From Luteirhabdus pelagi (GTDB taxonomy: Bacteria; Bacteroidota; Bacteroidia; Flavobacteriales; Flavobacteriaceae): a stretch of DNA of 64,000 nucleotides. The stretch lies in assembly GCF_016827595.1 (NCBI RefSeq), contig NZ_JAECMS010000001.1, forward strand, positions 248,001-312,000, in the 5' to 3' direction. The position numbers and the translations under genes were made by a program. The notes under the pieces are model-generated. The model ran no database searches, was not told the origin of the DNA, and saw nothing but the letters and a program-made list of their open reading frames with translations. Shown in pieces: positions 37,544-60,842 of the stretch. Position 1 is the first letter of the stretch. Each line of letters starts with the position of its first letter.

Positions 37544-37636
37544 ATTTCTTAACGATTTGTTAATTTTAAAGATTCGGAAACCCATTCAGTTTCGGTTCCT
37601 ATATCTTTAACCTCCTAAAATTTCAGTCAAAACACC

Positions 37637-40591
37637 ATGAAAAGACTTCTATTATTTCTTGTTTGTTTTTGGAGTCTGTCTTCCTTCTCTCAGGATTATT
37701 TTCCGAAGAATGACGGCCCAAAAGAGAAAAACACCAATTACACTGCTTTTACCAACGCTACCATTTATGTAACGCCAACCGAAAAAATATCGAAAGGGAC
37801 GTTATTAATCAAGGATGGAAAAGTGGTCTCTGTAGGAAAATCTGTTTCCATACCTGAAAATACAGTAACAATCGACCTAAATGGTGACTATATCTACCCT
37901 TCCTTTATCGATGCGTATACCGACTTTGGAATGGGTAAGGTAAAGGAAGCAGAACGCGAAGGCGGAAGATCGGCTCAGTACGGCCCGTCTCGGGAAGGGT
38001 TTTATTGGAACGATCATATCTTGGCCGAACGGAATGGCATCGAAAACTTCAAATACGACAAAAAACAGGCTTCAAGTTTTCGTGAAGCTGGATTCGGTGT
38101 GGTGAACACGCATACCATGGACGGTATTGCCCGTGGTACGGGAATGATGGTCGCCTTGAACGATAAAGATGATGATGCTACCAGAATTCTGGAAGATGCG
38201 CTCACCAATCATTTCTCTTTTGAAAAAAGTGAAACCAGCAATCAGAGTTATCCTACTTCCCTGATGGGTGCCATGGCACTGCTCCGTCAGTTGCAGCATG
38301 ATAAACAATGGTACAAAGATGGTAATGTACCAACCAAGGACAGAACCTTGGAAGCGCTTATCGCCAATGAAGGAATGGTAAACATTTTTGAAGCAGGTAG
38401 TAAGGACAACGACCTACGTGCCGATAAGATTAGCGACCAATTCAACCTCAACTATGTTATCGTTGGTGGTGGCGATGAATATGAACGCATAGACTTAGTT
38501 AAAAACACAAACGCCAATTACATCTTGCCCATCAACTTTCCAGATGCCTACGATGTTAGCGATCCGTATGCTGAAACCTACATCACCGTAGCGCAAATGC
38601 GCGATTGGAACCAAGCGCCGATGAATCCAAAGGTGATGACCGAAAACGGAGTTCCGTTTGCGTTGACCACTTTTGAATTGGATAAAGTATCCGATTTCAA
38701 CAAAAAATTGGAAAAGGCATTCCTTTACGGATATGATAAAACAAAAGCCTTGGAAGCGCTTACCAGTATGCCTGCAAAGTTTTTGGGTATAGAGGATAAG
38801 GTAGGAAGTCTAAAAGAAGGTCGGTATGCAAACTTCCTCATTACGTCGGGCCCTATGTTCGAGGCGGAAACCACGCTTTATGAAAATTGGGTACAAGGTG
38901 AAAAACATGTCGTAAATACACGCGACCAAAAGGATATTCGTGGAAATTATACCATGACCGCTGGTGGTAAAACATATGAAGTAGAAATCACCGGTGAAGT
39001 GGGCAAACCAAAATCGAAAGTGACGGCTGCCGATGTGGAATTTCCTTCAAAAATGGAATACTCACAAAATTGGGTGCGACTGTCCTTTACCGATAAAGAA
39101 AACAATGAAGTATACCGAACCACGGGAATCATTCCGAAGGAAGGCGACTCCTTTTCAGGGAAGATGATTCGTCCTGATGGGTCCGAAAGTGACTTTACCG
39201 CTACCCGAACGTCTTCTTCAAAAGAAAAGAAAGATAAAGACGACGAAAAAGTGAAGCCGGAAATAATGCCAATCACCTATCCGAATGTTGGATATGGATA
39301 TACGAAGGCTCCGGAACAAAAAGATATGCTTTTCAAAAACGCCACGGTTTGGACCGGAGAAGAAGCAGGAACGCTTGAAAATACAGATGTTCGCATTTCC
39401 GATGGAAAGATCGTTGAAATCGGCAAAGATTTATCGCGCCGCGGTGCCACGGTTATCGACGCAACCGGCAAACATTTAACGGCCGGTATTATCGATGAGC
39501 ATTCACACATCGCAGCCTTATCGATTAACGAAGCGGGACAAAACTCTTCTGCAGAAGTCAGTATTGAAGATGTGGTCGACCCAGAGGATGTAAGTATCTA
39601 CAGAAACTTGGCAGGTGGTGTAACCTCCATTCAAATTCTACATGGATCTGCGAATCCTATCGGTGGTCGCTCCGCTATTATTAAATTGAAGTGGGGTGAA
39701 GATGCCGACGGCCTTATTTACGATAACAGTCCGAAATTCATCAAGTTTGCCTTAGGTGAAAACGTCAAGCAATCGAATTGGGGAAGCTATTCCAGGTTTC
39801 CGCAAACCAGAATGGGTGTGGAGCAAGTGTATGTGAACTACTTCAACCGTGCGAAGGAATATGAAGCGAAGAAGAATAGTGGACAACCCTACCGAACCGA
39901 TGAGGAGTTGGAAGTATTATCTGAAATTCTAAACGGAGAGCGTTTTATTTCTTGTCACTCCTACGTTCAAAGTGAAATCAATATGCTGATGAAGGTAGCC
40001 GAGCGTTTCGACTTTAACATCAACACCTTCACCCATATCCTGGAAGGCTATAAAGTGGCCGATAAGATGAAGGAACACGGTGTGGGTGGTTCTACCTTCA
40101 GCGACTGGTGGGCCTATAAATACGAAGTGAACGACGCTATTCCTTATAACGCTGCCATTATGCATAACCAAGGGGTTACGGTTGCAATTAATAGCGACGA
40201 TGCTGAAATGTCGCGTCGACTAAACCAAGAAGCCGCTAAAACGGTGAAGTACGGTGGTATGAGTGAAGAGGAAGCATGGAAGACGGTTACGTTGAATCCC
40301 GCCAAATTACTTCATATCGATGACCGTGTAGGAAGCATTAAGGAAGGTAAGGATGCCGATTTGGTTCTTTGGAACGAGCATCCGCTTTCGGTCTATGCGA
40401 AACCTGAAAAGACGATTATTGAGGGACGCACTTATTTCGATATTGAAAAAGATGCCGAAATGCGTAAGGATATCACGGCTGAGCGCGCCAAACTTGTAAA
40501 AATGATGTTGGATGAAAAAGAAGGTGGTGGAAAGACCCGAAAACCAAAAGGCACGGAAGAACACTATTTTCACTGTAACACGGTAAACTAA
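37637..40591 (+). CDS. Exported double-domain amidohydrolase
   Basis: A 984-residue protein with a signal peptide ending SFSQ. Two amidohydrolase-type halves are fused. The N-terminal half (to about residue 530) has the composite beta-domain and the SFIDAYTDFG position where active members have a HxH pair, so it lacks that ligand. The C-terminal half keeps LTAGIIDEHSHIAA, the later histidines in SCHSY and FTHILEG, and INSDDAEMS, so it should be the active one. Substrates may be imidazolone-, dihydropyrimidine- or peptide-like; not determined. A second, shorter relative follows 5 bp downstream. Confidence 0.9.
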   Translation: MKRLLLFLVCFWSLSSFSQDYFPKNDGPKEKNTNYTAFTNATIYVTPTEKISKGTLLIKDGKVVSVGKSVSIPENTVTIDLNGDYIYPSFIDAYTDFGMGKVKEAEREGGRSAQYGPSREGFYWNDHILAERNGIENFKYDKKQASSFREAGFGVVNTHTMDGIARGTGMMVALNDKDDDATRILEDALTNHFSFEKSETSNQSYPTSLMGAMALLRQLQHDKQWYKDGNVPTKDRTLEALIANEGMVNIFEAGSKDNDLRADKISDQFNLNYVIVGGGDEYERIDLVKNTNANYILPINFPDAYDVSDPYAETYITVAQMRDWNQAPMNPKVMTENGVPFALTTFELDKVSDFNKKLEKAFLYGYDKTKALEALTSMPAKFLGIEDKVGSLKEGRYANFLITSGPMFEAETTLYENWVQGEKHVVNTRDQKDIRGNYTMTAGGKTYEVEITGEVGKPKSKVTAADVEFPSKMEYSQNWVRLSFTDKENNEVYRTTGIIPKEGDSFSGKMIRPDGSESDFTATRTSSSKEKKDKDDEKVKPEIMPITYPNVGYGYTKAPEQKDMLFKNATVWTGEEAGTLENTDVRISDGKIVEIGKDLSRRGATVIDATGKHLTAGIIDEHSHIAALSINEAGQNSSAEVSIEDVVDPEDVSIYRNLAGGVTSIQILHGSANPIGGRSAIIKLKWGEDADGLIYDNSPKFIKFALGENVKQSNWGSYSRFPQTRMGVEQVYVNYFNRAKEYEAKKNSGQPYRTDEELEVLSEILNGERFISCHSYVQSEINMLMKVAERFDFNINTFTHILEGYKVADKMKEHGVGGSTFSDWWAYKYEVNDAIPYNAAIMHNQGVTVAINSDDAEMSRRLNQEAAKTVKYGGMSEEEAWKTVTLNPAKLLHIDDRVGSIKEGKDADLVLWNEHPLSVYAKPEKTIIEGRTYFDIEKDAEMRKDITAERAKLVKMMLDEKEGGGKTRKPKGTEEHYFHCNTVN

Positions 40592-40596
40592 GAATC

Positions 40597-41901
40597 ATGA
40601 AAAACGTAAAACTATATAGCAGTATTGTAACAGTATTAGTAACTGCGTTCGTTTGGGCACAACAAACACCCGCTGCAGAGCAATCACAAGCCATTACCAT
40701 TCAAGGAGCAACCGCTCATATTGGAAATGGTGACGTAATCGAAAACAGTACCATCGTCTTTGAAGATGGTATCATTACCGCTATCGGAAGTACTGGTATT
40801 TCCTCAAAAGGAAAAGTAATCGATGCTTCGGGAAAGCATGTGTATCCCGGCCTTATCGCACCTACCAAATCGTTGGGATTAATAGAAATAAATGCCGTGC
40901 GAGCGACAGATGATCAGGATGAGTTAGGTGAAATGATTCCGCAGGTACGAAGTATTATCGCTTACAATGCCGAAAGCAAGGTGGTGGAAAGCATGCGTCC
41001 GAATGGAGTATTACTGGGACAGGTTACGCCTCAGGGCGGACGAATTTCAGGGACCTCATCAATTGTTCAATTCGATGCTTGGAACTGGGAAGATGCTATT
41101 GTAAAGGAGGATGATGGCATTCATCTAAATTGGCCAAGCAGTTTTAGAAGAGGTCGCTGGTGGGCTGGAGAAAGCCGAGGCTATCGTCCAAACGACGATT
41201 ACGCAGAAGATACCCAAGCGGTTCAGCAGTATTTGTTGCAAGCGCAGGCTTATGGAGACGGTAATGACACATCGATAAATGAAGGCTTTAAGGCAACGCA
41301 AGGACTGTTCGATGGTAGCAAAAAATTATATGTGTACGCCCACGGTCAAAAGGAAATAATCGATGCGGTTACCCTCGCCAAGGAAAGCGGAGTTCAAAAG
41401 GTAGTGGTAGTCGGCGGTTATGAAGCCTATAAGATTATCCCTTTCCTAAAGCAAAATGATATTCCCGTGTTGGTGCGTCAACCACACGCGTTGCCACGAC
41501 GCGAGGATGACGATTATGATTTACCCTATAAATTACCAAAATTGTTGGCAGAAGGGGGAATATTAGTCGGTATTCAAAACGAGGAAATGTCGAACTTCCA
41601 AACGCGAAACCTAGCATTTTACGCGGGTCACGTTGCTGGACAAGGTTTAGATAAGGAGAAAGCACTTCAACTGATCACCGAAAACAATGCGAAGATCTTA
41701 GGTATTGATGGTACCTACGGAACGTTGGCTGAAGGAAAGAGTGCTACCCTATTTGTATCGAACGGCGATGCGTTGGACATGCGAGGAAATGATTTGGAGC
41801 ATGCGTTTATCGACGGACGCGCAATTTCACTCGAAACCCACCAAACAGAATTATGGAAACGCTATTCTGAAAAATACGAACTACAGAAAGAAGGAAAATA
41901 G
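40597..41901 (+). CDS. Exported amidohydrolase-like protein lacking metal ligands
   Basis: A 434-residue protein with a signal peptide (VTVLVTAFVWAQ). The N-terminal composite beta-domain (HIGNGDVIENSTIVFEDGIITAIG) and the closing ILGIDGTYGTLAEGKSA place it in the amidohydrolase superfamily, but the usual GLIDxHxH reads PGLIAPTKSLG, and the later Asp loop reads GIQNEEMSN instead of SD. It therefore looks catalytically inactive or uses other residues. Cotranscription with the upstream double-domain protein (5-bp gap) suggests a complex of the two. A terminator follows. Confidence 0.88.
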   Translation: MKNVKLYSSIVTVLVTAFVWAQQTPAAEQSQAITIQGATAHIGNGDVIENSTIVFEDGIITAIGSTGISSKGKVIDASGKHVYPGLIAPTKSLGLIEINAVRATDDQDELGEMIPQVRSIIAYNAESKVVESMRPNGVLLGQVTPQGGRISGTSSIVQFDAWNWEDAIVKEDDGIHLNWPSSFRRGRWWAGESRGYRPNDDYAEDTQAVQQYLLQAQAYGDGNDTSINEGFKATQGLFDGSKKLYVYAHGQKEIIDAVTLAKESGVQKVVVVGGYEAYKIIPFLKQNDIPVLVRQPHALPRREDDDYDLPYKLPKLLAEGGILVGIQNEEMSNFQTRNLAFYAGHVAGQGLDKEKALQLITENNAKILGIDGTYGTLAEGKSATLFVSNGDALDMRGNDLEHAFIDGRAISLETHQTELWKRYSEKYELQKEGK

Positions 41902-41925
41902 GATAGAAATCCGTTTTACTCACTC

Positions 41926-41953
41926 AAAAGGCTACTTTACTAGGTGGCCTTTT
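41926..41953 (+). terminator. Terminator after the amidohydrolase pair
   Basis: Stem AAAAGGCTAC/GTGGCCTTTT (one G-T wobble), loop of 8, then a T-run. Clear plus-strand intrinsic terminator. Confidence 0.8.
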
Positions 41954-42003
41954 TTTTGTGGTGGTGAATGATGGTTCTTTGAATTAACTAAAAACCATCC
42001 ATT

Positions 42004-43149
42004 ATGAAAAAAGCCATCACTATTTCCATCCCAGAACCTTGTCATGAAGATTGGAACGAAATGACTCCTACAGAAAAAGGTAGGTTTTGCGAGCAATGTA
42101 CAAAAGAGGTTGTAGACTTCACCTCACAAAGCGATGAACAAATCATCAAACATCTAGAGCATAATGATAAGTTGTGCGGACGATTTAGGGCTTCACAGCT
42201 TGACCGAAAACTTCAATTAGAGCGTAAAGAAGGTTTTTCCTTGGCACCTTGGGCCGCTTCACTCCTGTTGCCCATAAGTATGATGGCCCATTCGGCTACT
42301 TCAACAGAAAACAGTAAGAGCCCTGAATCATATGTTTCACTAGGTATTGGAAGCAGAAGTGGCGACAGAATACAGATTACCACTACAGGTGTTGTGACCG
42401 ATACCGAAGGGAATCCACTTCGAAATGTAAAAGTTACCGTCAAGGAATCTGGAAAAACGGAATGGACCAACCGAAAGGGAGCGTTCAAGATTGTTTCCTT
42501 AGATCGTGAGACCTTGGTATTTGAAAAGGAAGGGTTTCGTTTGTATGAAGAAAAACGAGGTTTGAAATCGGAAGCTATCCACATTGAACTGGTCACTCCC
42601 ATTTGCGAACTACCTCAAGAAGAAGAAAAAACCGTAACCGTACGTCGCACTGTGGGAATGATTGTTTCTGAAGTTGAAGTTGAAGATAAAACTGAGGATG
42701 AAGCTATGCCCTTTGAAATATCCGGAACGGTAACCGATGAAAGCGGCGTACCACTACCAGGAGCCAATGTTATTGTAAAGGGAACATCGCGTGGCACACA
42801 AACCGATTTTGATGGAAAGTATACCATTGAGGTTTCCGAAGGTGACAAATTGATATTTAGTTATATAGGTTTCGACGAACAAATCATCCCTATTGAAAAA
42901 AATGCTACTACTACGAATGTTCTGTTAGTTGAATTAAAAACATCCTTAATGGGTGAAATTGTTATCGTAACCGGCGGAATTTCTATGGAATACGAAGAGC
43001 CTCCCGAAACTCCCGAAGAACGTCGTATCCGATTGGAAAAACAGAAAAAGGCCTACGCCAATGAGCTGGAGTACAAACGTATTAAACAAGAGCGCAAGAG
43101 GGCCGCACGCAAATTGCGCCGTGCCAAAAGACGAAAAAATCGAAACTGA
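42004..43149 (+). CDS. Cys-domain membrane protein with two carboxypeptidase-regulatory-like domains
   Basis: A 381-residue protein without a normal signal peptide. Residues 1-70 form a Bacteroidota N-terminal domain with Cys13, Cys29, Cys32 and Cys57 (GRFCEQCTKEVVDFT and LCGRFRASQL). A hydrophobic segment follows (PWAASLLLPISMMAHS, about 80-95), then two transthyretin-like modules: GVVTDTEGNPLRNVKVTV (about residues 120-195) and GTVTDESGVPLPGANVIV, the SusC-type plug-lead domain (about 238-315), but no TonB barrel. The last 50 residues are very basic and helical (EERRIRLEKQKK onward). Likely inner-membrane with a periplasmic part. Function unknown. Confidence 0.82.
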   Translation: MKKAITISIPEPCHEDWNEMTPTEKGRFCEQCTKEVVDFTSQSDEQIIKHLEHNDKLCGRFRASQLDRKLQLERKEGFSLAPWAASLLLPISMMAHSATSTENSKSPESYVSLGIGSRSGDRIQITTTGVVTDTEGNPLRNVKVTVKESGKTEWTNRKGAFKIVSLDRETLVFEKEGFRLYEEKRGLKSEAIHIELVTPICELPQEEEKTVTVRRTVGMIVSEVEVEDKTEDEAMPFEISGTVTDESGVPLPGANVIVKGTSRGTQTDFDGKYTIEVSEGDKLIFSYIGFDEQIIPIEKNATTTNVLLVELKTSLMGEIVIVTGGISMEYEEPPETPEERRIRLEKQKKAYANELEYKRIKQERKRAARKLRRAKRRKNRN

Positions 43150-43233
43150 TGCGACGCTAGAATTCGGAAAGTTTTGGGTTAGACAATAATCTCCTGTCTA
43201 AAAAGTTATATTTTTACCGAAAACCTTTCCTAC

Positions 43234-44790
43234 ATGAAGTATTTGTATGCCCTTGGACTTTTCTGCACCATTATTTTGTGGAGTTCTTGTCGCAACGATT
43301 TTGAAACCGTATCCAGTACTGGAAACTTAGAGTTTTCTACCGATACGGTGTATCTGGACACCATCTTCAGCAATATTGGCTCTAGCACCTACACTTTAAA
43401 GGTTTACAACAGAAGCGATGAGGATATCAATATCCCATCGGTGCGCTTAGGGGAAGGGGAAAGTTCGAACTACCGATTGAATGTAGACGGTGTTCCAGGA
43501 AAGGAGTTTCAGGATGTACGCATATTGGCGGAAGACAGCATATTTGTCTTTGTAGAAACCACTGCCGATATCGAAACCTTAACGACCGAAGGGTTACAGT
43601 TTTTATATACCGACCAGATTCAGTTCGATACCGGTGGAAACCAACAGAATGTAGAATTGGTCACTTTGGTACAAGACGCCGTGTTCCTATTTCCAGAGCA
43701 ATTTGGCGATGGTACTACCGAAACATTGGTCTTAGGTCAGGATGAGGAAGGAAATGATATTGAAATTGAAGGGTTCTTCTTAGATGATGATGAATTGACC
43801 TTTACGAATGAAAAGCCATATGTTATCTATGGATACGCTGCTGTTCCTCCCAACCGAACGCTTACGGTTGAAGCCGGTGCTAGGGTTCATTTTCATGCGG
43901 CCAGCGGTATCTTGGTAGCGGCAAATGCGTCCATGCAATGTTTGGGTGCAACTAGCAACGACCCAGAAGCGTTGGAAAATGAGATAATTTTTGAAGGCGA
44001 TCGATTGGAGCCTGAGTTTTCTGATGTGCCTGGTCAATGGGGAACCATTTGGCTTACCGCAGGAAGTACCGATCATGTATTTCGAAATACAACAATAAAG
44101 AACGGCGTTATCGGGTTGCGGATGGATAGTAACGATGGCGATCTAACTTTGGAGATGGAAAATGTACAACTTTACAACCATGCGGTATATGGCCTGTATG
44201 CGCTAACCGGAAATGTTTATGGTGAAAATGTAGTCGTTAACAATTGTGGCCAGTCTTCCCTTGCCTGTCTGTTTGGCGGCACCTACGAATTCAACCATTG
44301 TACCTTTGCTAATTATTGGACCAATAGCTTCCGTTCATTACCGGCGGTTCAATTGGGCAACGTGATTCAGACGGGAGAAAACTCGTTTGAAACCATGCCG
44401 TTAAATATAGCCATCAACAATAGCATTATCTACGGAAATGAGCAACGCGAAATAGGCTACGACAATAGTGCTGACGCTGCATTCAACTTCAACATTAGCA
44501 ATACATTAATTCGTTTTGAAGATCCTTCAGGCGATTTTGACGATGATCCACTTTATGATTTTAGCGATGCTGCTTTGTACAATAATATTGTTCGCAATCA
44601 GGATCCGGTTTTCTTTGCTCCCGAAGAGAATGAACTCTCTATTGAAACTGGAACTTCAGCTGCCGATGGCATCGCTGACCCAACCGTTTCAACCCAATTG
44701 AATACTGACATTACGGGAACACCTCGCGATGGTACCAATCCCGATGCGGGTGCCTATGAGAGTGTGGAGTTTCCTGATATGGAGAACTAG
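43234..44790 (+). CDS. Lipoprotein with a parallel beta-helix-like repeat region
   Basis: A 518-residue lipoprotein (lipobox IILWSSC). The first 180 residues form Ig-like strands (STDTVYLDTIFSNIGSS, TYTLKVYNRSDEDINIP). From about residue 200 there is a right-handed beta-helix pattern of short repeated strands with Asn turns (TIKNGVIGLRMDSN, VQLYNHAVYGLYALTGNVYGENVVV, NNCGQSSLACLFGGTYEFNHCTF). It ends PRDGTNPDAGAYE, a typical closure of such helices in Bacteroidota surface proteins. No catalytic residues are recognised. It may display or bind polysaccharide at the cell surface, which is inference. Confidence 0.8.
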   Translation: MKYLYALGLFCTIILWSSCRNDFETVSSTGNLEFSTDTVYLDTIFSNIGSSTYTLKVYNRSDEDINIPSVRLGEGESSNYRLNVDGVPGKEFQDVRILAEDSIFVFVETTADIETLTTEGLQFLYTDQIQFDTGGNQQNVELVTLVQDAVFLFPEQFGDGTTETLVLGQDEEGNDIEIEGFFLDDDELTFTNEKPYVIYGYAAVPPNRTLTVEAGARVHFHAASGILVAANASMQCLGATSNDPEALENEIIFEGDRLEPEFSDVPGQWGTIWLTAGSTDHVFRNTTIKNGVIGLRMDSNDGDLTLEMENVQLYNHAVYGLYALTGNVYGENVVVNNCGQSSLACLFGGTYEFNHCTFANYWTNSFRSLPAVQLGNVIQTGENSFETMPLNIAINNSIIYGNEQREIGYDNSADAAFNFNISNTLIRFEDPSGDFDDDPLYDFSDAALYNNIVRNQDPVFFAPEENELSIETGTSAADGIADPTVSTQLNTDITGTPRDGTNPDAGAYESVEFPDMEN

Positions 44791-44923
44791 ACGCATTATC
44801 CTTATACAGTTAGTGGACTGAAATGTACCTTTCTTCTACCGATAGGTACCAATACAGCTTTTCTTATTTTTATAAGGTGTTCATAGTGAGAGATTTGTGG
44901 TAACAACCATTAATTTCTTTATT

Positions 44924-47008
44924 ATGAAACAGTTTATACTTATCTGTTTTCTGTCTCTTTTATCTCTTTCTAGTTGGAGTCAGGAAATAACGATTAGCCC
45001 CTTTGCGGGTGTATCCAATCCCACAAGTGACTTTTCCGAATTTTCGGAAAGCGGCTGGACGGCTGGATTGAACTCAAATTATTTTTTCAGCGATCATTTC
45101 GGAGTAGGTTTTCAGCTAAGCCATCAACAAAACGATTTTAAAAGTCCGTTCAACTACGACGTAATTCCAACTGACGATACCGGTACCTACAGCGTGTCGC
45201 AGTTTTACGATGGTTCTTGGAGCGTTTCCAATATTGGATTGGGTCCTGTATATGGATTGCGCTATAACAAGTTTTCCTTCCTGTTTTCTGCGATGCCCGG
45301 AATTTCATTCGTATCGAGTCCCGAAGCACTTGTAATGTTGCAATATGTAAATGCCGAACGCGAATTATTTCAACTGGAGCCACGAACGATAACGGCTTTT
45401 GGTATGTCCGCTGGAGTAAGTTTTACTTATCGCGTTACCGATACTTTTTCATTCTTTGTCTACCCAGAATACCATTACAGTACGGCAGCAATCAACTATG
45501 GTTTTCGCTCTATCGAGCCGGCTATTTCTACTAATACCGAAGGGCAAACTGAATTCGATCCCATTCCACTTATTGAAGTGCCTTTGGAAGAAGCCAGCGT
45601 GTCTCCCACACAACTTAGTGTGTCTGCTGGTGTAACTTTCAGCTTTGATGTTAAAACGAAAAAGCCAAAAAAGGATGATCCAATTTCAACTACTGAAAAT
45701 GTGGCTATCGATCAGGAAGTTCAAGAACATGAAAAAACTTGTGATGTAACAAGGTTGTCGGCTCCTCGAAAGTTTCAGGAATTTTATATCGATTCACCTC
45801 GGAAACCCAACTTTCGTTGGGAGAACCCTTCTTCAATCGTGACGCAATACACCTTTGTTCTTTCCGAAGAAGGAAAGGAAGTATATCGTGAACGAATAAC
45901 TGAACAAGGTCTTCAGCATAATCAAAAACTACAGAAGATCTATGAGCGTTCTAAAAAGGAAACAACGGAGTATCATTGGAAGGTTATCACATCGTACACC
46001 AAGTGCAAGGATACAGAAACGGATCATGGTATCTTTTTGATGAACCGGTCTAGTGGTACTTTTCATGATGTTGTCGAGATTGAATGTGAAGACCCGCCTT
46101 TCACCCCACAAGGAATGTATGCCTATAAGGCGAACTTATTTCTTTTTCACAATAGTTTTGCGAGCCATCCACTGGAAATAACCTCACTTTCCGACATTAC
46201 CATTATCAATCCCACAGGTGCCGTAATAACTAGCCTCACAGATTGTAGCACTGGAAATCCCGTATCCTTTCCAATTACTATTGTTCCTGCCGGTAGCGCG
46301 ACCTATTGCATGACCTTTGAAGTACCTTCTGGGAGCGCATCTATAGACACACAGATCGAGGGAAATGTAAATGGCAACCCACAAATATCGACAAGCGGTG
46401 CACATGAACTCCCAACGTGTCTTTGTGATATATGTGAAGAATGGGAGATAGATATTCAAAACCAAAACATATCTCCTATTGTTACCGGTGCGAGCACGAT
46501 TGAAGATTATATCTTAATTGAAGACAGGCTAACCGCTATTGCGCCCTTCGGGAATATCGTACAGGTACAGGCAGAAGTAACCACGTTTGAGTACTTCCCG
46601 GGAGATAACAGCCCTTTTCCAGACCAAGAGCAATGTGTAGTCTGTAACAAGGAGGATAGTCAGTATGGCCCTTTTGTTACCCTGTACAATGGCAGCTCAC
46701 AAACTACCCAACATTTATCTGGTGGTTTCGCATCGGGCGGTTACGGTCGCTATTTAGGAGGAAGCGCTATGAGTAGAAATATAGTTTGGCAATCGCCAAC
46801 GCCAAGCGGATTGGTTCTTGGCAACGAGACCGCAAAACTTAGTATTGGTGTACCGAAGTTCGCCGGTGCCTGTTGTTCTGATTTATTCAAAATCTGTGTG
46901 CGATACACCTTCACTGCCATAGATGATGCCACTGGAGCCTGTATAAGTTGCTCTGAGGTGGTTTGCTATTCTTTGTTTCGCGATGAAAACACTGTTGTAC
47001 AACTTTAA
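44924..47008 (+). CDS. Outer-membrane beta-barrel protein fused to a Cys-rich C-terminal module
   Basis: A 694-residue protein with a Sec signal (LLSLSSWSQ). Residues 20-245 look like an eight-strand OmpA/PorT-type barrel (ISPFAGVSNPTSDF, SDHFGVGFQLSHQQ, SFFVYPEYHYSTAAINYGF). A linker rich in Lys leads to a fibronectin-like stretch (PNFRWENPSSIVTQYTF, HWKVITSYTKC) and a cysteine-rich half. From residue 504 (nt 46433) it carries a module shared with the next protein: FEYF, CVVC, IVWQSPTP, ACCSDLFKICVRYTF and ACISCSEVVCYS. ATG 44924 is chosen because the signal peptide starts there. The 1022-residue gene begins 8 bp later, so they are co-translated. Confidence 0.8.
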   Translation: MKQFILICFLSLLSLSSWSQEITISPFAGVSNPTSDFSEFSESGWTAGLNSNYFFSDHFGVGFQLSHQQNDFKSPFNYDVIPTDDTGTYSVSQFYDGSWSVSNIGLGPVYGLRYNKFSFLFSAMPGISFVSSPEALVMLQYVNAERELFQLEPRTITAFGMSAGVSFTYRVTDTFSFFVYPEYHYSTAAINYGFRSIEPAISTNTEGQTEFDPIPLIEVPLEEASVSPTQLSVSAGVTFSFDVKTKKPKKDDPISTTENVAIDQEVQEHEKTCDVTRLSAPRKFQEFYIDSPRKPNFRWENPSSIVTQYTFVLSEEGKEVYRERITEQGLQHNQKLQKIYERSKKETTEYHWKVITSYTKCKDTETDHGIFLMNRSSGTFHDVVEIECEDPPFTPQGMYAYKANLFLFHNSFASHPLEITSLSDITIINPTGAVITSLTDCSTGNPVSFPITIVPAGSATYCMTFEVPSGSASIDTQIEGNVNGNPQISTSGAHELPTCLCDICEEWEIDIQNQNISPIVTGASTIEDYILIEDRLTAIAPFGNIVQVQAEVTTFEYFPGDNSPFPDQEQCVVCNKEDSQYGPFVTLYNGSSQTTQHLSGGFASGGYGRYLGGSAMSRNIVWQSPTPSGLVLGNETAKLSIGVPKFAGACCSDLFKICVRYTFTAIDDATGACISCSEVVCYSLFRDENTVVQL
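46433..47005 (+). other. Cys-rich C-terminal module, copy A
   Basis: The C-terminal 190 residues of the barrel protein share an ordered set of motifs with 49450-49935: F-E-Y, CxxC, IVW or TIW followed by TP, then CC/GC, CVR, and CxxCxxVxxCY. No known family is recognised. Confidence 0.65.
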
Positions 47009-47016
47009 AAACCTTA

Positions 47017-50000
47017 ATGATGAAAACAATTTTATATAAAACCTTATTTATTTTGATGTTTTGCTTTTACCAAAGCAATGCACAGATAACGATTTCAAGA
47101 ACACCCGATCCGATACCCACAACTATAAACAGTTGTCAGACAGTGACGCTTAATTATAGTGTGACGGTCAATAATGGGCCGTACAACTCGATAACCATAA
47201 ATGAACAGTTTATGCCGCAAGGAGGGTGTCCAACGACCCCTCTTAATCCGAGGTTATCAAATTTACCTTCAGGATCTATCGCCACGACGAGCAATGGTTT
47301 CAACATTACGATTAACAATACGAGTGCAGGGTCTTCAACCTATGTTTTTCAGGTAAGCATGACAATAAATGCCCCGCCTCAATTCGAATCATATCAATTA
47401 TGCGTTTCCGGAATTACAGCATCGAGTGTTCCAGCTGCATCGATTTCAGTTTCACCAAGCACACAACAATGTTTTACGATTGAAAATAAGGCCACGTGGC
47501 GATCTTCCATCGATTGTGTTGAACAAACTGGAGTAAACTGTTTTCTATATACCGTGAATGTAAAGGATCTATCCTCCTCCTGCGACGCCAATATGTATGG
47601 TACACCGAGGTTTGAATTTTCCGTTCCGGGTGGAGGGATTATTAACGGTGTAACATCCAACGCTACTTTGGCAAACGTCGTGAATGGAGGGAATACCATT
47701 GCATTTTCGAGTACTACCAATACATGGATTCAAAACAGTACACGCGAGAAATATACATTTGAAGTACAATATCCTTGTAGTAACTTCCCTTCCAGCACCA
47801 ATGTTACAGCTCAGTTTGACCAAATTAATAACAGCGTGCCGACGAACACAAACTATGGTCAGTCTTGTCCCTCAGGAAGTGGTGGAAGTCCTATTACTAT
47901 TGGCAGTTCGAACACAACCCTTCAAATAGAAGATCCTACCCTGGACGCAACGGTAGAAGTTAAGGAGTATTATGATTCTAGTAAAAACACTCCTGGTTGT
48001 GCGAATAAGGCATACGTAGAATTTACCAATATAGGGAACACTATTATAGATGATGTTTTGGCTGAAGTGAAAATCCCTTCAACGATTGAAATAACTAATC
48101 TTTGCGCTCAAATATCATTGATAACTGGATATCGTCTAGCCGGTCAGCCTTGGCAATATGGTGTTCCTAGTAACGCACAGTTTCCACAGCTCATCGGGCT
48201 CAGATACAAGAGGACAACCGATATTGATGCTCCAAGACTATGTAATGGCAATAAGGATCCTGAAAAATGGGTGATACCACTTTGCTATCGTATAAAATCC
48301 AGTGTAGCAGTTGGTACTGATATTAAAATTTGTGCCAGTCTAAAATATACAGATAAAGTAGGATGTACGGCAACTTCTTGTCCACCATATTCACCACATT
48401 CCGGTCAAAAATCAAACTGTCTAATCTACCCAGTAGTAGCTCCTGAAGCGAAACCAAGAATACTGAAAAGTATCGCAAATGCTTCCCTATATCCAGGAAA
48501 CAGTACGAGTTTCATAATAGAAATCGCGAATTCAGGCAGTGGAGACCTAATAACCACCATGCAGGATATTATCCCGAACGACTTTCAAAATATTAGCATT
48601 GCGACTATTCAATATAGTGCTGCTGGGGCCACTTTTACAACCCCACCCGCTGGAGTAATTACCAGCCAGTCAGTTACCGGGAATGCTATAAACGTCGGCC
48701 TGAATATTCCTGGCATCTGTACCTTGGGTGGCAGTTGTTGTTCGTTACTTGAGAATAAAGTACGGATCAGAATCGATGTTCAGGTTAAAGACTGTATTCC
48801 TCAGAAAACAGGGGTGAATGTAGCTCGACTTCAACCGCAAAATGAAACCGCGAGTAGATCCTACGCTATACGTAACTACAACCGCTTGGATGTTCAAAAA
48901 TTTGCAAAAGGCGATATGGCTTCCAGTTGGACTTCAGGAAGTACGAGCACTACGGTTAGTCCAGGTGGAAACATCGATTATAAGATTACCATTAAAAATA
49001 ACGACCCTTACGATTGGAACGATTTGGTCATATCCGATATCTTACCCTACACCACGCCGCCAGATGTCATCCTTTGCACCAGTGTTCCAAGGGCCAGTCA
49101 ATTTGATGTAGCTTTACGAGCTCCGGTAACAGTTTCCCTGAATGCTGCGGCAAGTGCTGTTAGCAGTACCATTAGTTATACAAATACGATAATGACTACG
49201 GAAAGTGATCTCTGTGGCGGTACCGCCATAATTAATTCAGGATTTTCTGTAGGAGATCGTGGTTTTAAGGTGAAATTTAACGATCCGATTCCTTGCGGCG
49301 CTGAAATCACCATCAATATTCCAGCAAAGGTAATGGGAAATCCTTCTCAAGGAGCCGTAGCTACCAATTCGACCTCCTTTGTTACGAGCAATAATTCGTT
49401 ACTCGGATATGCTACCGCAGCCGCGGAAATTCAAACGTGGCAGTTGGATTGTTGCGACCAACAGGAACTGAGCCTGTCCAATTTTCAGGTACTAACCTAC
49501 GAAGATGGCGGAACCACCCATAATCGCGCTGCCATTAATTTGGATGTAAGTTCATTATCGAATATTCCTGTACAAAAAATAAGGCTATCGGTAATCGATT
49601 TTGAATACGATCAAAACTTCGACGACTGTAAAGTTTGCCACAACTCTTTCCGCGGACTAGGAACATTCCCAGGAAATTCGGATTGGGCATTTCCCATCGG
49701 TGGTTTACCGGTAATACCCAATACCAATACTTATGATGGAAGCCGGGAAACAATATGGGAAGCAGGAACTCCCACAGCCATCAACACACCACAAACCATC
49801 AGAACATGGCTAAATATTCCTAAAAGCCTTCAAGTTAATGGCTGTCAAGGATGCGTTCGAGTATGCTTAAAGGTAGAAGTAACCGATATTAACTGTAACA
49901 CTTGTGAAGTTATAGGATGTTACACTATTAACCTAATGCCCGTTACGGCACAGCCCTCCCCTATTTGCCCTCAAAATGTAACGATGCCTCTAAACTTGGA

Positions 50001-50085
50001 TGCTGATTTTTCAGAATTTGAGATGCCCCCTCAATTTCCACCTATCAATTCAGAAAATCATAGTGAGGCATGTAAAAAGTGCTAA
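47017..50085 (+). CDS. Large secreted Cys-rich protein with DUF11-like repeats
   Basis: A 1022-residue protein with a signal peptide ending QSNAQ. Three or four Ig-like repeats of the DUF11 kind are visible, for example ATVEVKEYYDSSKN with YVEFTNIGNTIID, LYPGNSTSFIIEIANSG and VSPGGNIDYKITIKNNDPYDW followed by VISDILPYT. About 37 cysteines occur in the mature protein, high for a Bacteroidota surface protein. The module at residues 812-975 resembles the C-terminus of the preceding protein. It has no T9SS sorting domain; the sequence ends SEACKKC, a terminal cysteine. It probably forms a disulfide-rich envelope or surface structure. A perfect terminator follows. Confidence 0.8.
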   Translation: MMKTILYKTLFILMFCFYQSNAQITISRTPDPIPTTINSCQTVTLNYSVTVNNGPYNSITINEQFMPQGGCPTTPLNPRLSNLPSGSIATTSNGFNITINNTSAGSSTYVFQVSMTINAPPQFESYQLCVSGITASSVPAASISVSPSTQQCFTIENKATWRSSIDCVEQTGVNCFLYTVNVKDLSSSCDANMYGTPRFEFSVPGGGIINGVTSNATLANVVNGGNTIAFSSTTNTWIQNSTREKYTFEVQYPCSNFPSSTNVTAQFDQINNSVPTNTNYGQSCPSGSGGSPITIGSSNTTLQIEDPTLDATVEVKEYYDSSKNTPGCANKAYVEFTNIGNTIIDDVLAEVKIPSTIEITNLCAQISLITGYRLAGQPWQYGVPSNAQFPQLIGLRYKRTTDIDAPRLCNGNKDPEKWVIPLCYRIKSSVAVGTDIKICASLKYTDKVGCTATSCPPYSPHSGQKSNCLIYPVVAPEAKPRILKSIANASLYPGNSTSFIIEIANSGSGDLITTMQDIIPNDFQNISIATIQYSAAGATFTTPPAGVITSQSVTGNAINVGLNIPGICTLGGSCCSLLENKVRIRIDVQVKDCIPQKTGVNVARLQPQNETASRSYAIRNYNRLDVQKFAKGDMASSWTSGSTSTTVSPGGNIDYKITIKNNDPYDWNDLVISDILPYTTPPDVILCTSVPRASQFDVALRAPVTVSLNAAASAVSSTISYTNTIMTTESDLCGGTAIINSGFSVGDRGFKVKFNDPIPCGAEITINIPAKVMGNPSQGAVATNSTSFVTSNNSLLGYATAAAEIQTWQLDCCDQQELSLSNFQVLTYEDGGTTHNRAAINLDVSSLSNIPVQKIRLSVIDFEYDQNFDDCKVCHNSFRGLGTFPGNSDWAFPIGGLPVIPNTNTYDGSRETIWEAGTPTAINTPQTIRTWLNIPKSLQVNGCQGCVRVCLKVEVTDINCNTCEVIGCYTINLMPVTAQPSPICPQNVTMPLNLDADFSEFEMPPQFPPINSENHSEACKKC
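49450..49935 (+). other. Cys-rich C-terminal module, copy B
   Basis: Residues 812-973 of the 1022-residue protein contain the same ordered motifs as copy A: DFEYDQ, CKVCHN, TIWEAGTPT, GCQGCVRVCLKVEV and CNTCEVIGCY. Similarity is local and modest but ordered. Confidence 0.65.
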
Positions 50086-50096
50086 GATGCATCTTC

Positions 50097-50132
50097 AAAA
50101 GAAGGCATTGGATATGGCCATTGCCTTCTTTT
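50097..50132 (+). terminator. Terminator after the Cys-rich protein gene
   Basis: A perfect 11-bp stem AAAAGAAGGCA/TGCCTTCTTTT with a 14-base loop. It separates the surface-protein genes from the lipoprotein and regulator genes. Confidence 0.85.
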
Positions 50133-50211
50133 AAAAAAAATGAAAAAGTAGGGTAACAATTTCAAACCTTATTTGATATACCAACAAATAACCAAAGTAA
50201 ATTCAATAATT

Positions 50212-50643
50212 ATGAAAACAGTTAACAATTTGAAAAGAAGTATTTTAACCATCGCCGTATTAGGAACCTTTCTATTCTTACAGTCATGTTGTTGCGATGA
50301 TACTGTAGAACCTTCAGGAATCATAAGCTGTGAAGCAGCCATGATGAAAGGTGAACAGTATTCAACTCAATATCCCGGTGAAACGACCGATGTTACGTTC
50401 GACATGGAAGAAATAGAAGCGTTTATTTGCCAGATAAAATCGAAAGCCGACGAAATCCCCCATTCAGATTTGAGCTTTCGCGTATACTTTGCGCGAGATA
50501 CTATTGCGGGAAGTCTAGAAAACACAGTCTTTTTGGCAGGAAGTTATACCGATGTAAACGGCGCAGTCCAAAATATTAAGTACTACCTCAACATGGGAGA
50601 TATTGGCAATAACGGTATCTTAGATATCAATTGTGCACCTTAA
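50212..50643 (+). CDS. Small lipoprotein with a Cys-Cys-Cys lipobox
   Basis: A 143-residue lipoprotein whose signal ends LFLQSCCCDD, so the lipidated cysteine is followed by two more cysteines. The mature part has further cysteines in SCEAAMM, FICQIK and the end NCAP, and a strand-rich body (FRVYFARDTIAG, VFLAGSYTDVNG). No known domain is recognised. The start at 50212 (MKTVNNLKRS) is chosen as the start of the signal peptide. It lies 3 bp before the six-helix membrane gene and probably shares its transcript. Confidence 0.75.
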   Translation: MKTVNNLKRSILTIAVLGTFLFLQSCCCDDTVEPSGIISCEAAMMKGEQYSTQYPGETTDVTFDMEEIEAFICQIKSKADEIPHSDLSFRVYFARDTIAGSLENTVFLAGSYTDVNGAVQNIKYYLNMGDIGNNGILDINCAP

Positions 50644-50646
50644 AAA

Positions 50647-51261
50647 ATGATTGTAACATTTAAAACTATATTATACGCCCTGCAGGTCCTTGCTTTTCTA
50701 GTGGCATTATTTCGCCAGAAGAAAAATAAAAAGGGCCTGCAAGGGATTTTTGTTTATTTCTTGGGGTTCGTGCTGCTGACAGAATTTTCGGCAAATTATG
50801 TACGTATCGTGGCTGGTATAAACAACACATTCATATATAATATTTTCAATACTGTTTCACTGATCTTTTATATGTATTGGCTACAGCAGTATTTGAGAAA
50901 GAAGTGGATACGTTATCTTTATGTTGGATTTATAGCGGCTACCCTCATTGAGGCATTTTTCACCCCTTGGAAAGAATTATTGAAGACATCATTCTACCTT
51001 GGAGTTGGCATCATTTTTTTTATGACCATTTTCTATTTGTTAACCTTGTTGAAAAAGGAAGAGGTAATTCAATTCTATAGGAAACAATCGTTTTGGATTA
51101 GTACCGGAATCCTAATTTATCACATTGGTGTGTTTCCATTAATTTTGTTGTTAGATGTGCCCTCCTTCAATAAGGTACACTTTCAATTTGCGCTTATGTT
51201 TCTTAATATATTCCTTTATGCTCTAATTACGGTTGGTTTACTATGTCCACTGAAACGATAG
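50647..51261 (+). CDS. Multipass membrane protein of the LytS/LytTR unit
   Basis: A 204-residue protein with six or seven probable helices (about residues 5-22, 32-52, 62-80, 90-107, 114-134, 147-168 and 176-198) joined by short basic loops (RQKKNKK, RKKWIR, KKEEVIQFYRKQ). It has no large soluble domain. Such a protein next to a LytS-type kinase with only one helix could act as the membrane input module; this is inferred from position and the 19-bp overlap with the kinase gene. No family name is assigned. Confidence 0.75.
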   Translation: MIVTFKTILYALQVLAFLVALFRQKKNKKGLQGIFVYFLGFVLLTEFSANYVRIVAGINNTFIYNIFNTVSLIFYMYWLQQYLRKKWIRYLYVGFIAATLIEAFFTPWKELLKTSFYLGVGIIFFMTIFYLLTLLKKEEVIQFYRKQSFWISTGILIYHIGVFPLILLLDVPSFNKVHFQFALMFLNIFLYALITVGLLCPLKR

Positions 51262-52052
51262 ATAGCTATATATATTTGGTTTTTATTGCCATTGGAATTA
51301 TCCTGGCATTAATCATCTTATTCTCTGCATTTTTAATTCAGAAAAATAAACTGGTAAATGAAAAGTTGAAATCGGAGCTTGAATATGAACGAAAAGTACA
51401 GCAATCAGAACTACGGGCCCTTCGAGCTCAGATGAATCCGCATTTTATCCATAATAGTTTAAACGCTATTCTTTTTTATGTGCAACGCAACGATGTGGCA
51501 TTATCAGAAAAATACCTATCCCGATTTTCGAAGCTAATCAGGCAATTTTTCGAGTACTCAAGATCCCAATATATTCCCCTTACGACCGAGATTGATCTCT
51601 TGGAGAATTACTTGGAAATTGAAAAGATGCGCTTCGAAAATAAATTGAATTGGGAAATCAATGTGGCACGAAGCTTAAAGGAAGAGAATCCTGAATTACC
51701 TTCCATGATGGTTCAACCACTGGTCGAAAACGCCATTAACCATGGCATCTTTCATCTAAGCGAACCTGGTTTTATTTCAATATCCTTCCTATCTTACTCA
51801 GGCTCCCAAGCCATAATGAAGATAATTGTAGAGGACAATGGTGTAGGAATGGAACGATCGCGAGAAATTCAAGGAGCGCATAAATCACATGCTCGATCTC
51901 ATTCCTCTCAGGTTTTAGAAGAACGTATTAATCTTTTGCAACATAATAATGAATGGGAGGTAAACATAAATATTGAAGATCTCTTTGAAGCGAGAACCGA
52001 GAAAACGGGTACTCGCGTCACGCTAACATTAAACTACCTAAATTATGATTAA
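51243..52052 (+). CDS. LytS-type sensor histidine kinase
   Basis: A 269-residue kinase. One N-terminal helix (YLVFIAIGIILALIILFSAFLI) is followed by a coiled-coil linker and the His_kinase domain, with phospho-acceptor His67 in RAQMNPHFIHNSLNAI, then the N-box PLVENAINHGI and the G-box VEDNGVGM. There is no large extracytoplasmic sensor domain, so signal input must come from another protein, possibly the overlapping multipass protein. The gene overlaps the upstream gene by 19 bp and the downstream regulator by 8 bp. Confidence 0.93.
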   Translation: MSTETIDSYIYLVFIAIGIILALIILFSAFLIQKNKLVNEKLKSELEYERKVQQSELRALRAQMNPHFIHNSLNAILFYVQRNDVALSEKYLSRFSKLIRQFFEYSRSQYIPLTTEIDLLENYLEIEKMRFENKLNWEINVARSLKEENPELPSMMVQPLVENAINHGIFHLSEPGFISISFLSYSGSQAIMKIIVEDNGVGMERSREIQGAHKSHARSHSSQVLEERINLLQHNNEWEVNINIEDLFEARTEKTGTRVTLTLNYLNYD

Positions 52053-52785
52053 GGCATATTTAGTAGATGACGAACCGAAAGCACTGGCAATTTTATCTGA
52101 TAAAATTCGTAGGGTTTGCCCTGATATTGAAATTATAGGCACGACACAGAATCCAAAAGAAGCTATAGAGTTCTTACGAGAATCGCCGCCGGACCTACTC
52201 TTTCTGGATGTCGCAATGCCAGAAATAAATGGCTTCGAAGTATTGCAACAGCTTGAAAAGCCAGATTTCGAGATCATTTTTGCCACCGGCTACGATGAAT
52301 ATGCCGTACAGGCCATCAAGCATTGCGCAATCGGCTATTTGGTGAAGCCTATAGACAACGACGAATTAGTGGATGCAGTTTCAAAAGCAAAGGAGAACAT
52401 CTCAGAAAAAAGTGCCTTGGCAAAAAACAAGGCCTTAATCGAAAATTTACAGGTAAAAAGATTTCGTGACAAAAAAATAATCATTCCCTCTCAAGAAGGA
52501 TTAGAGTTTCTAGAAATTGGGAATATACTGCATTTTGAAGGAATTGATGGATATACGAAAATTCACATCAATGACCGTAAGCCCCTTCTCAGTTCGCAAA
52601 GTATTGGTCACTTTGTAAAGATGTTACATGATCAAGATTTCTATCAGGTTCACAAATCGCATTTAATTAACCTAAATCATATCAATTCTTACCTCAATGA
52701 AGGATACGTAACAATAAAAGATACCAATATTCCAGTTTCCCGAAATAGGAGGAGCGATTTCCTTACGATGCTGAAGAATACCTAA
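52045..52785 (+). CDS. LytTR family response regulator
   Basis: A 246-residue regulator with a receiver domain (phospho-acceptor Asp55 in LLFLDVAMPE; acidic pair VDDE at 7-10; Lys in YLVKPIDNDE) and a C-terminal LytTR DNA-binding domain (IIPSQEGLEFLEIGNILHFEG, then FYQVHKSHLINLNHINSY and NIPVSRNRRSDF). LytTR proteins bind paired direct repeats upstream of target genes. It is the last gene of the overlapping unit, and only 2 bp separate it from the convergent lipocalin gene. Confidence 0.94.
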   Translation: MIKAYLVDDEPKALAILSDKIRRVCPDIEIIGTTQNPKEAIEFLRESPPDLLFLDVAMPEINGFEVLQQLEKPDFEIIFATGYDEYAVQAIKHCAIGYLVKPIDNDELVDAVSKAKENISEKSALAKNKALIENLQVKRFRDKKIIIPSQEGLEFLEIGNILHFEGIDGYTKIHINDRKPLLSSQSIGHFVKMLHDQDFYQVHKSHLINLNHINSYLNEGYVTIKDTNIPVSRNRRSDFLTMLKNT

Positions 52786-52787
52786 AA

Positions 52788-53300
52788 CTATTCTTCTTTC
52801 AACCACTTTAACCGTAGACTAGCATTCGCCTTCTCCACAGGTCGAATGACAAGCGTATCGCCGTTGAAAGAGAAGCGACGTTGCACTGTTTTGCCCCAAT
52901 CGCCGGGATTGGAATGCGATAATCGTTTATGTGAAACGATACTATCTTTTTTATTTAACGAATAATCGCCGATGTAAACATACGAACCGGTTAGGTGTTG
53001 AAGAGCCTTCAGCGGAATCGTATCGGTAAAGTTTGGAAAACGAAGGTCCGTTTTTTCATATCCCTTTTCCCATAGGTGAAGCGACATATAACCACTTTCA
53101 CCATAGAGCAAGTATCCCCCCATCCCATCGCGCCATTGTTTCCAGTTGCCAACAGAATCAGTAACTTCCATGGCCTGCAGCGACCATAAGCCAGACAATG
53201 TTTCTTCTAAGCTTTTCGTTGGGGCTTGACTTTTTTCTTCTGAAATAGCATTACAGCTTATGGCGATAACACATGCCAAAAGCAAGGACAAAATTTTCAT
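52788..53300 (-). CDS. Lipocalin-like lipoprotein
   Basis: A 170-residue lipoprotein (lipobox VIAISC). The mature part has LSGLWSLQAMEVTDSVGN, YLLYGESGYMSLHLW and GDYSLNKKDSIVSHKRLSH, matching the lipocalin-like domain often found in secreted Bacteroidota proteins. The ligand is unknown. It is convergent with the LytTR regulator and transcribed in the same direction as, and after, the two FG-GAP genes. Confidence 0.82.
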   Translation of the reverse strand: MKILSLLLACVIAISCNAISEEKSQAPTKSLEETLSGLWSLQAMEVTDSVGNWKQWRDGMGGYLLYGESGYMSLHLWEKGYEKTDLRFPNFTDTIPLKALQHLTGSYVYIGDYSLNKKDSIVSHKRLSHSNPGDWGKTVQRRFSFNGDTLVIRPVEKANASLRLKWLKEE

Positions 53301-53325
53301 ATAAGGTTTGTTGAATGTGAAGGAA

Positions 53326-55032: not shown

Positions 55033-55116
55033 AAGGTAAAGATGATTAGTTGGTTATTCAATAAAATTCTTAATTGAAGGTCAGCAAATTTGAGACAATC
55101 TCAAATTATTATGGAA

Positions 55117-56823: not shown

Positions 56824-56898
56824 AAACTACCGAAATAGGTTAGTAACTCTTGATTATCAGACCAAGATAACAAATTTCCTTAATTTCCAATCGGAACT

Positions 56899-58173: not shown

Positions 58174-58200
58174 GTATTTTTCTGAAAAGTTAATAAAATC

Positions 58201-58208
58201 CAAAAATA
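58201..58208 (-). promoter_or_regulatory. Bacteroidota -7 box of glyA
   Basis: CAAAAATA on the plus strand is TATTTTTG toward glyA, exact consensus 27 bp before the start. Confidence 0.6.
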
Positions 58209-58240
58209 CAAAATGCTTGTGGTTACTGTTTCAGAAATTA

Positions 58241-58248
58241 TATATTTG
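58241..58248 (+). promoter_or_regulatory. Bacteroidota -7 box of fahA
   Basis: TATATTTG on the plus strand matches TAnnTTTG, 31 bp before the fahA ATG at 58280; it is divergent from the glyA box at 58201-58208. Confidence 0.55.
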
Positions 58249-58279
58249 ATTAACATTTTTACGAACAAAAACCAACCGT

Positions 58280-59563: not shown

Positions 59564-59586
59564 TTTGGCATCACAATTGTATTTTA

Positions 59587-59620
59587 GCCTTCATAACCAA
59601 ATCAATTTCGTTATGAAGGC
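59587..59620 (+). promoter_or_regulatory. Perfect hairpin covering the start codon of the next gene
   Basis: Ten-base arms GCCTTCATAA (59587-59596) and TTATGAAGGC (59611-59620) with a 14-base loop. The right arm contains the ATG at 59613 and is followed by ATTTTTATTTT, so it resembles both a start-sequestering hairpin and a fahA terminator. Confidence 0.5.
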
Positions 59621-60776: not shown

Positions 60777-60780
60777 ACCC

Positions 60781-60836: not shown

Positions 60837-60842
60837 CAATAT

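Follow-up and report, generated by a model that had tools for sequence, protein, structure and literature searches.

Results

The A and B genes and their shared module

The 64,000-nucleotide stretch of the Luteirhabdus pelagi genome analysed here (the window) carries on its forward strand two neighbouring genes, A and B. Judged from their sequences, they appear to encode a barrel-fronted envelope protein and a long partner that have a cysteine-rich domain in common and whose function is unproven. Both open reading frames are present as described in an earlier note made from the sequence alone: gene A (44924-47008) codes for 694 residues and gene B (47017-50085) for 1022 residues, on the same strand and with a gap of 8 bp (47008 to 47017). 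By eye, both N-termini read as signal peptides. In A the signal peptide is followed by a predicted OmpA-like β-barrel (residues 20-243, 44981-45652), a stretch that is Fn3-like (by eye) and Ig-like and, at the C-terminus, the cysteine module (residues 497-694, 46412-47005). B comprises a DUF11-like stretch, its own cysteine module (about residues 812-973, 49450-49935) and a tail of about 49 residues. The promoter motif TTG-N-TAnnTTTG does not occur upstream of A within 44700-44930.

The module common to A and B spans about 160 residues and was located by BLASTP, alignment and profile searches. In a direct BLASTP comparison residues 491-684 of A match residues 800-971 of B with an E-value of 6e-5 and 22% identity over 199 columns. 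The Smith-Waterman score of the two modules is 93, while 2000 shuffles of the B stretch give a mean of 32 (standard deviation 5.2) and a maximum of 63. The likeness of the two modules noticed earlier is thus beyond chance, and A-type modules also match B-type modules of other genomes in cross-genome comparisons. Twelve modules of both types, taken from six genomes, share nine invariant alignment columns, seven of which are cysteines. The framework starts with CC or CxxC and has one or two cysteines ahead of a conserved glycine, followed by C(C)...C...CxxCx4C.

Three details of the ordered motifs that the earlier note had read as shared do not hold as written. The CVR motif was rejected as a shared element because it is out of register: in A it begins at Cys658, which aligns with Cys950 of B, while in B it begins at Cys946. 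The last motif is CxxCx4C followed by a tyrosine in both proteins and not CxxCxxVxxCY, and at the supposed common cysteine pair A has two adjacent cysteines, CC (650-651), where B has CxxC (943/946). Among 28 distinct pairs the A-module contains 10 cysteines in 23 and 11 in five, and the B-modules contain 8 to 11. Full-length B has 38 cysteines, so that the previous count of about 37 is exact only if Cys16 lies in the signal peptide. The C-terminal cysteine of B, to which significance had been attached, was discarded as a functional feature since it is unconserved, with only one of 28 B proteins ending in cysteine.

The modules of A, B and their relatives match no family in Pfam or NCBIfam and no PDB sequence (best PDB sequence E-value 0.91), in agreement with the earlier impression that the module belongs to no named family. 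In the literature, as represented by titles and the openings of abstracts, no title describing the pair or the module was found, which is not proof of absence. The cysteine module appears to be an undescribed domain family with a two-gene signature. A model of the B module based on 48 of 50 modules (two of locus L075 were omitted) is an all-β sandwich with a mean predicted local distance difference test score (pLDDT) of 72.4 and a predicted TM-score (pTM) of 0.70. Its structural matches are scattered over Ig-like folds, the best VIA match having a Z-score of 8.6, a level that the tool rates as common. Foldseek finds no match at E ≤ 0.001 (best E-value 1.7e-3). For MSCRAMM-type Ig-like adhesin domains the values are a Foldseek E-value of 1.7e-3 with a TM-score of 0.35 and VIA Z-scores of about 7-8, a range occupied by many unrelated folds. 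The N2 and N3 domains of MSCRAMMs adopt the DEv-IgG fold. As these scores are at a common level, we do not assign the module to a family on the basis of the Foldseek and VIA matches.

Distribution, pairing and phylogeny of the module

Searches with the single sequence of A detect relatives in 7 of 299 genomes of the family, three of which match in the barrel region only (G010, G242, G121), and searches with B in 6 of 299; both counts include the own genome. With a module profile, 6 of 397 family genomes are positive, each with an adjacent pair and one with a third, partial copy. The same profile search yields 6 of 395 genomes of the class and 10 of 395 of the phylum, own genome included, five of the latter being weak single matches. 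A scan of named genomes adds 25 loci from Lutibacter, Sphingobacterium, Hydrotalea, Psychroflexus, Altibacter, less closely named Flavobacteriaceae and Sphingobacteriaceae, and metagenome assemblies; a scan of named genomes with P0001 alone gave no match.

Altogether, two modules occur at 28 distinct loci from Flavobacteriaceae, Sphingobacteriaceae and Chitinophagaceae, and in all 28 A precedes B and lies close to it. The co-occurrence of the pair in other genomes proposed in the earlier note is thereby borne out. The note had staked its case on three points, namely similarity of the modules, lack of a known family and co-occurrence elsewhere, and it withstood all of them. Duplicates were dropped from the phylogenetic tree and from the table of 28 pairs (L051, L062, L069 and L071, equal to L018, L019, L020 and L021, and L075, a near copy of L074). 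L057 and L060, in which gene A is cut by contig ends, were counted as pairs. Single modules are found in L048, L066 and L070, the last of which is cut by a contig end and cannot reveal a pair.

In the module tree A-modules and B-modules are split on one branch with a support of 96/90, and 98% of the 200 bootstrap trees reproduce the split. Branches are long, and the placement of the window B module is unsure; genomes G1044 and G900 and the five weak singles of the phylum sample lie outside it (among these singles the region was viewed for G871, L121, only). The split indicates that the A- and B-modules most probably arose by one old duplication and were then inherited jointly. G900 encodes two adjacent giant proteins of 1571 and 1719 residues with two cysteine modules each (L119:3895-14266), which suggests that modules work in pairs. 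The distances among A-modules and among B-modules are correlated with r = 0.97 (none of 5000 permutations as high). We did not use this correlation as evidence of contact, as common descent of the genomes alone would produce it.

The position of the module differs between the two proteins: it ends at most 12 residues from the C-terminus in 24 of 28 A proteins but is mostly internal in B, where the tail is this short in only 4 of 28. Together with the ordinary all-β sandwich and its weak, scattered matches (Foldseek 1.7e-3, VIA 8.6), the internal position in B would suit a module that serves only as a stable Ig-like cap or stalk domain, present in both of two proteins that share a task without docking through it. 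We consider this rather unlikely. Such a generic domain would be expected in many unrelated proteins, yet the module is nearly confined to adjacent pairs and its two copies retain separate identities.

The barrel of protein A

The AlphaFold2 model of full-length A, for which 17 of 22 candidate A sequences were used (a 23rd listed sequence was a B protein of L071), has eight long strands (at least 12 residues) within residues 20-243 in addition to short strands. The model is weak overall (pLDDT 57.3, pTM 0.35), with a mostly confident barrel. The best structural match of the barrel is E. coli OmpA (Z-score 18.8, root-mean-square deviation 3.2, 167 residues), while the N-terminus of A scores 25.2 bits against the Pfam family OMP_b-brl (PF13505), below the gathering cut-off of 28.7. 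The barrel model and the OmpA match support the earlier suggestion that A is an outer-membrane anchor. In the OmpA topology an even-stranded barrel leaves the remainder of the protein in the periplasm. Since the barrel of A is likewise even-stranded, the rest of A, including its module, would be expected to be periplasmic.

With an ad hoc profile the barrel is recognised in 19 of 28 distinct A proteins, a count that includes the six training rows. Among the other nine, two are cut by contig ends (L057, L060), the A protein of L020 aligns N-terminally with a barrel-type A in BLASTP, and six apparently have no barrel (L019, L021, L047, L049, L050, L074). Four of these six loci have, as judged by eye, a separate gene for a putative outer-membrane barrel of another kind that matches no family, which adjoins the pair in L049, L050 and L074 and lies 5 kb away in L047. 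We also observed that a barrel-like family of about 580 residues and a domain common to L047:17697-18566 accompany barrel-less A-B pairs (L047, L049, L050, L074, L120). No Pfam match was found for the members of this putative barrel family that were scanned.

The order of parts in A, with a barrel followed by Ig-like domains and a cysteine-containing domain last, is that of intimin and invasin. By this logic A would be an inverse-autotransporter-like protein in which the N-terminal barrel brings the Ig-like C-terminal part of the same chain to the cell surface as its passenger. In inverse autotransporters, however, a 12-strand barrel lies ahead of the passenger, and an 8-strand barrel is too narrow for the passage of folded domains. 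The barrel of A models with eight strands and matches OmpA best, and six A proteins apparently have no barrel at all, which makes this explanation highly improbable.

An EF-hand-like stretch is seen in the A barrel of a Lutibacter locus (L051:5658-7769, about residues 212-229; PF13202 18.4 bits, under the cut-off of 25.9). By analogy with the window model it is placed in the last extracellular loop, and by eye similar acidic loops are present in G114 and G208. We did not retain an EF-hand-like loop as a feature of the A barrel: PF13202 stays under its cut-off in this one relative, and the strict pattern occurs in a single distinct open reading frame with a module.

Domain composition and export of protein B

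Window B resembles DUF11 proteins but stays under the cut-offs of the corresponding models (PF01345, 18.7 bits with a cut-off of 24.6; TIGR01451, 20.7 bits with a cut-off of 24). Its relatives in L051, L068 and L074 exceed the cut-offs of TIGR01451 and TIGR04226. Overall the B relatives range from 604 to 1695 residues, and various members contain DUF11, DUF7507, PKD, Kre9_KNH, SdrD_B or Fib_succ_major domains. Over aligned columns the window and G114 share 30% identity in A and 23% in B, compared with 67% in the flanking β-helix lipoprotein and 49% in the kinase. This fast change of A and B suits exposed proteins, and equally loosely constrained repeats.

No type IX secretion system (T9SS) sorting domain, whether TIGR04183 or another NCBIfam model, was found in A or B at E-values up to 1 and 0.1, or in eight further B proteins at E-values up to 0.1. 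The proposal that B is the surface-displayed part of the pair therefore lacks support, given that neither protein has such a domain and that the A module is expected on the periplasmic side. In the 438-residue protein of L048 a module (residues 183-332) is joined by a sorting domain of T9SS type A, which scores 35.5 bits (cut-off 23). Because of this sorting domain, the L048 module should probably reach the cell exterior.

Disulfides or metal binding

Of the redox proteins VKOR and DsbB, neither was detected in any of nine pair-bearing genomes, while the same searches were positive in 3 and 6, respectively, of 14 control genomes. These nine genomes nevertheless encode secreted proteins with many conserved cysteines. 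This raises the question of how proteins with about ten conserved cysteines can fold beyond the cytoplasm in genomes that yielded no DsbB or VKOR. A disulfide-stabilised assembly, as proposed earlier, would fit the conserved cysteines; the usual oxidation partners were not found. The module cysteines may form disulfides, bind metal or be oxidised by another route. The missing VKOR and DsbB would fit a pair that handles metal at the envelope, its conserved cysteines binding a metal ion and forming no disulfides, and the copper-binding YcnI domain ranks first among the VIA matches of the module (Z-score 8.6). However, YcnI lies within one Z unit of unrelated Ig-like folds, and no metal-related family was seen in Pfam or NCBIfam among the proteins of the six-gene block described below, so that we regard metal handling as very unlikely.

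A six-gene block with LytS and LytTR genes

Downstream of B, on the same strand, follow genes for a small lipoprotein of 143 residues (50212-50643; lipobox by eye, G012 homologue with an E-value of 7e-31), a putative multi-pass membrane protein of 204 residues (50647-51261; transmembrane nature by eye), a LytS-type histidine kinase of 269 residues (51243-52052; PF06580, 77.1 bits, cut-off 25.2) and a LytTR response regulator of 246 residues (52045-52785; PF00072, 79.2 bits, and PF04397, 52.1 bits, both above cut-off). The membrane protein has no Pfam match, and its homologues adjoin kinase genes in G012 and G010. The kinase contains no propeller sensor domain, and its gene adjoins that of the receiver-LytTR protein, as in LytTR two-component systems.

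Comparison with G074, a genome of the same genus, delimits the unit. Its DNA is 92% identical to the window over 37526-44784, 80% over 52767-55004, a stretch in which G074 lacks one of two homologous tandem genes, and 96% over 55395-63996. The 8 kb in between are missing, so that in G074 the β-helix lipoprotein gene is directly followed by the counterpart of gene 52788-53300. Neither single-sequence nor profile searches find a module in G074. The missing block corresponds to 44791-52777, with borders good to about 15 bases. Since G074 lacks them as one block, A, B, the 143-residue lipoprotein, the 204-residue membrane protein, the kinase and the regulator were gained or lost together. The presence of A and B at the same site in G114 makes a loss in G074, rather than a gain in the window, plausible.

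The locus of the earlier note (42004-50085) was right as to the A-B pair but overlooked the sensor genes that are present or absent together with it. We rejected that interval as a unit, which instead reaches to 52785. The two upstream genes it had included are flanking genes outside the unit, namely those for a CarboxypepD_reg protein with an N-terminal Cys motif (42004-43149, forward strand; Pfam) and the β-helix lipoprotein (43234-44790, forward strand). Both are kept in G074, which has no A-B pair and in which the β-helix lipoprotein gene is intact; this gene is widespread, occurring in 29 of 40 genomes with the own one included.

The site after the widespread β-helix gene holds differing units of secreted proteins and sensor kinases in the window, G012 and G114, with a kinase set nearby in G010 and none in G074. 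In G012 two genes for T9SS cargo occupy it, and each has a kinase/regulator set behind it. Of these sets, one runs lipoprotein - membrane protein - kinase - regulator, is homologous to that of the window and has no A-B. In G010 a set of the same order, also without A-B, lies one gene further on; no homology was detected between its lipoprotein and the 143-residue protein. G114 carries at this site A-B, a T9SS leucine-rich-repeat protein and a propeller kinase with the regulator directly after it. Across the region after the β-helix gene in 14 genomes (L088-L101) no module was found, and a kinase set is present in L089 and L093. The lipoprotein - multi-pass membrane protein - LytS - LytTR set (window 50212-52785) thus recurs without A-B, in L089:17675-19901 beside a different T9SS cargo and in L093:10053-12792 alone. 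Beyond the block, two tandem T9SS proteins of 568 residues (window 53326-56823) correspond to a single gene in G074 (L088:7799-9505), the two ends of which by eye resemble different window copies, as if the copies had recombined.

Kinase and/or LytTR genes are present in the fetched stretch, which differs in length between loci, at 7 of 31 distinct loci (window, L017, L021, L046, L067, L070, L072), upstream of the modules in three and downstream in four. A LytTR gene lies within 10 kb of the pair in 4 of 9 pair-bearing genomes, where 0.47 are expected (Poisson P = 0.0014, genome sizes rounded). This count covers nine of the ten pair-bearing genomes (G761 was omitted), with 1 to 15 LytTR genes each.

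The kinase and/or regulator genes at 7 of 31 loci, together with a window kinase that has no Pfam-recognised sensor domain and whose gene comes after those of a lipoprotein and a membrane protein, would suit an A-B pair that acts as a periplasmic or outer-membrane receptor feeding the co-inherited LytTR system, with surface display not being the point. The periplasmic location expected for the A module would fit as well. We think this unlikely, because most loci have no nearby kinase, the kinase set occurs without A-B, and the domains and size variation of B resemble those of extracellular adhesive proteins.

Discussion

Our preferred reading is that A and B form an outer-membrane complex docked via their twin modules; B would be the variable part that does the work, and LytTR control would be optional. 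We give this reading a probability of roughly 0.4. The near confinement of the module to adjacent pairs, one of which lies outside the class (G1044), the conserved order and spacing of the genes, the A/B split of the tree, the barrel of A, the excess of LytTR genes near the pair and the absence of the block as one unit from G074 argue for it. So do the two-module proteins of G900, the separate putative barrel genes at four loci with a barrel-less A, the variable size and domains and the fast change of B, and the sorting domain of the L048 module protein. A would be held in the outer membrane by its eight-strand OmpA-like barrel and present an Ig-like cysteine-rich module at its end, while B would be a long chain of Ig- and DUF11-type domains with a sister copy of the module. 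The twin modules, derived from one duplication, would most likely dock A to B and so keep the fast-changing variable domains of B at the outer membrane, where they might act like an adhesin or a receptor. The lipoprotein - membrane protein - LytS - LytTR set in the block most likely would control the expression of A and B.

Several observations weigh against the docked complex. With the A module expected in the periplasm and no T9SS sorting domain, display of B would require a further export step. Unpaired modules exist in L048, in L066, where 5.5 kb upstream are covered, and in the five weakly matching genomes of the phylum sample. In G1044, from outside the class, two adjacent module genes share one base at their junction, and the gene after them matches the putative barrel family and its companion domain. 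The first module gene fits the B profile better, at 56.3 bits, than the A profile, at 47.8 bits, so that the A/B typing does not extend cleanly to deep relatives. As to regulation, the LytTR count of 4 in 9 genomes is not fully independent, because the window and G114 share one chromosomal site. Moreover, most Lutibacter and Sphingobacterium loci have neither kinase nor regulator in the fetched stretch, and the lipoprotein - membrane protein - kinase set is present without A-B in G012 and G010. Thus the association of kinase and regulator with A-B looks real but optional, the sensor being a companion that the pair can do without.

A bolder version of the docked complex, which we hold to be quite unlikely, is that Bacteroidota use the twin modules as a coupling device of a new type. 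A module borne by a barrel would receive a partner-borne one and hold at the outer membrane long, fast-changing multi-Ig proteins that have no type IX sorting domain, while the co-inherited kinase set would monitor the assembly. If true, this would constitute a second, modular route of envelope attachment beside the known sorting domains. The pair in any case raises the question of how the partner reaches its place if it has no type IX sorting domain. As the domain family can be defined in cultured genera (Lutibacter, Sphingobacterium, Hydrotalea), its role is testable.

Barrel-anchored envelope systems with Ig repeats are already known as a kind; the domain family appears to be undescribed. 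A resembles OmpA-like proteins (PF13505) in its eight-strand N-terminal barrel and soluble C-terminal part. It differs in that this part is Fn3/Ig-like and ends in the cysteine module, and no OmpA-type peptidoglycan-binding domain was found with Pfam. B resembles DUF11 and isopeptide-forming fimbrial repeat proteins (PF01345, TIGR01451, TIGR04226), but window B scores under their cut-offs, carries the undescribed module and is tied to gene A. Type IX cargo (TIGR04183) is encoded in the window by genes near A and B and likewise at the corresponding site of G012 and G114, and the module protein of L048 also has a sorting domain, whereas A and B have none. The two-gene layout, with a barrel gene next to that of a long putative surface protein, recalls pairs of the SprB-SprF type, which consist of an adhesin and an outer-membrane barrel. 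In contrast to these, A has an OmpA-like barrel fused to a copy of the module of B and no SprF/PorP match in Pfam or NCBIfam, and B again differs by its missing sorting domain. Finally, the kinase and regulator families pass their cut-offs as in LytS/LytTR systems with Reg_prop/Y_Y_Y propeller sensors, whereas the window kinase contains no propeller, and genes for a lipoprotein and a membrane protein lie ahead of its own.

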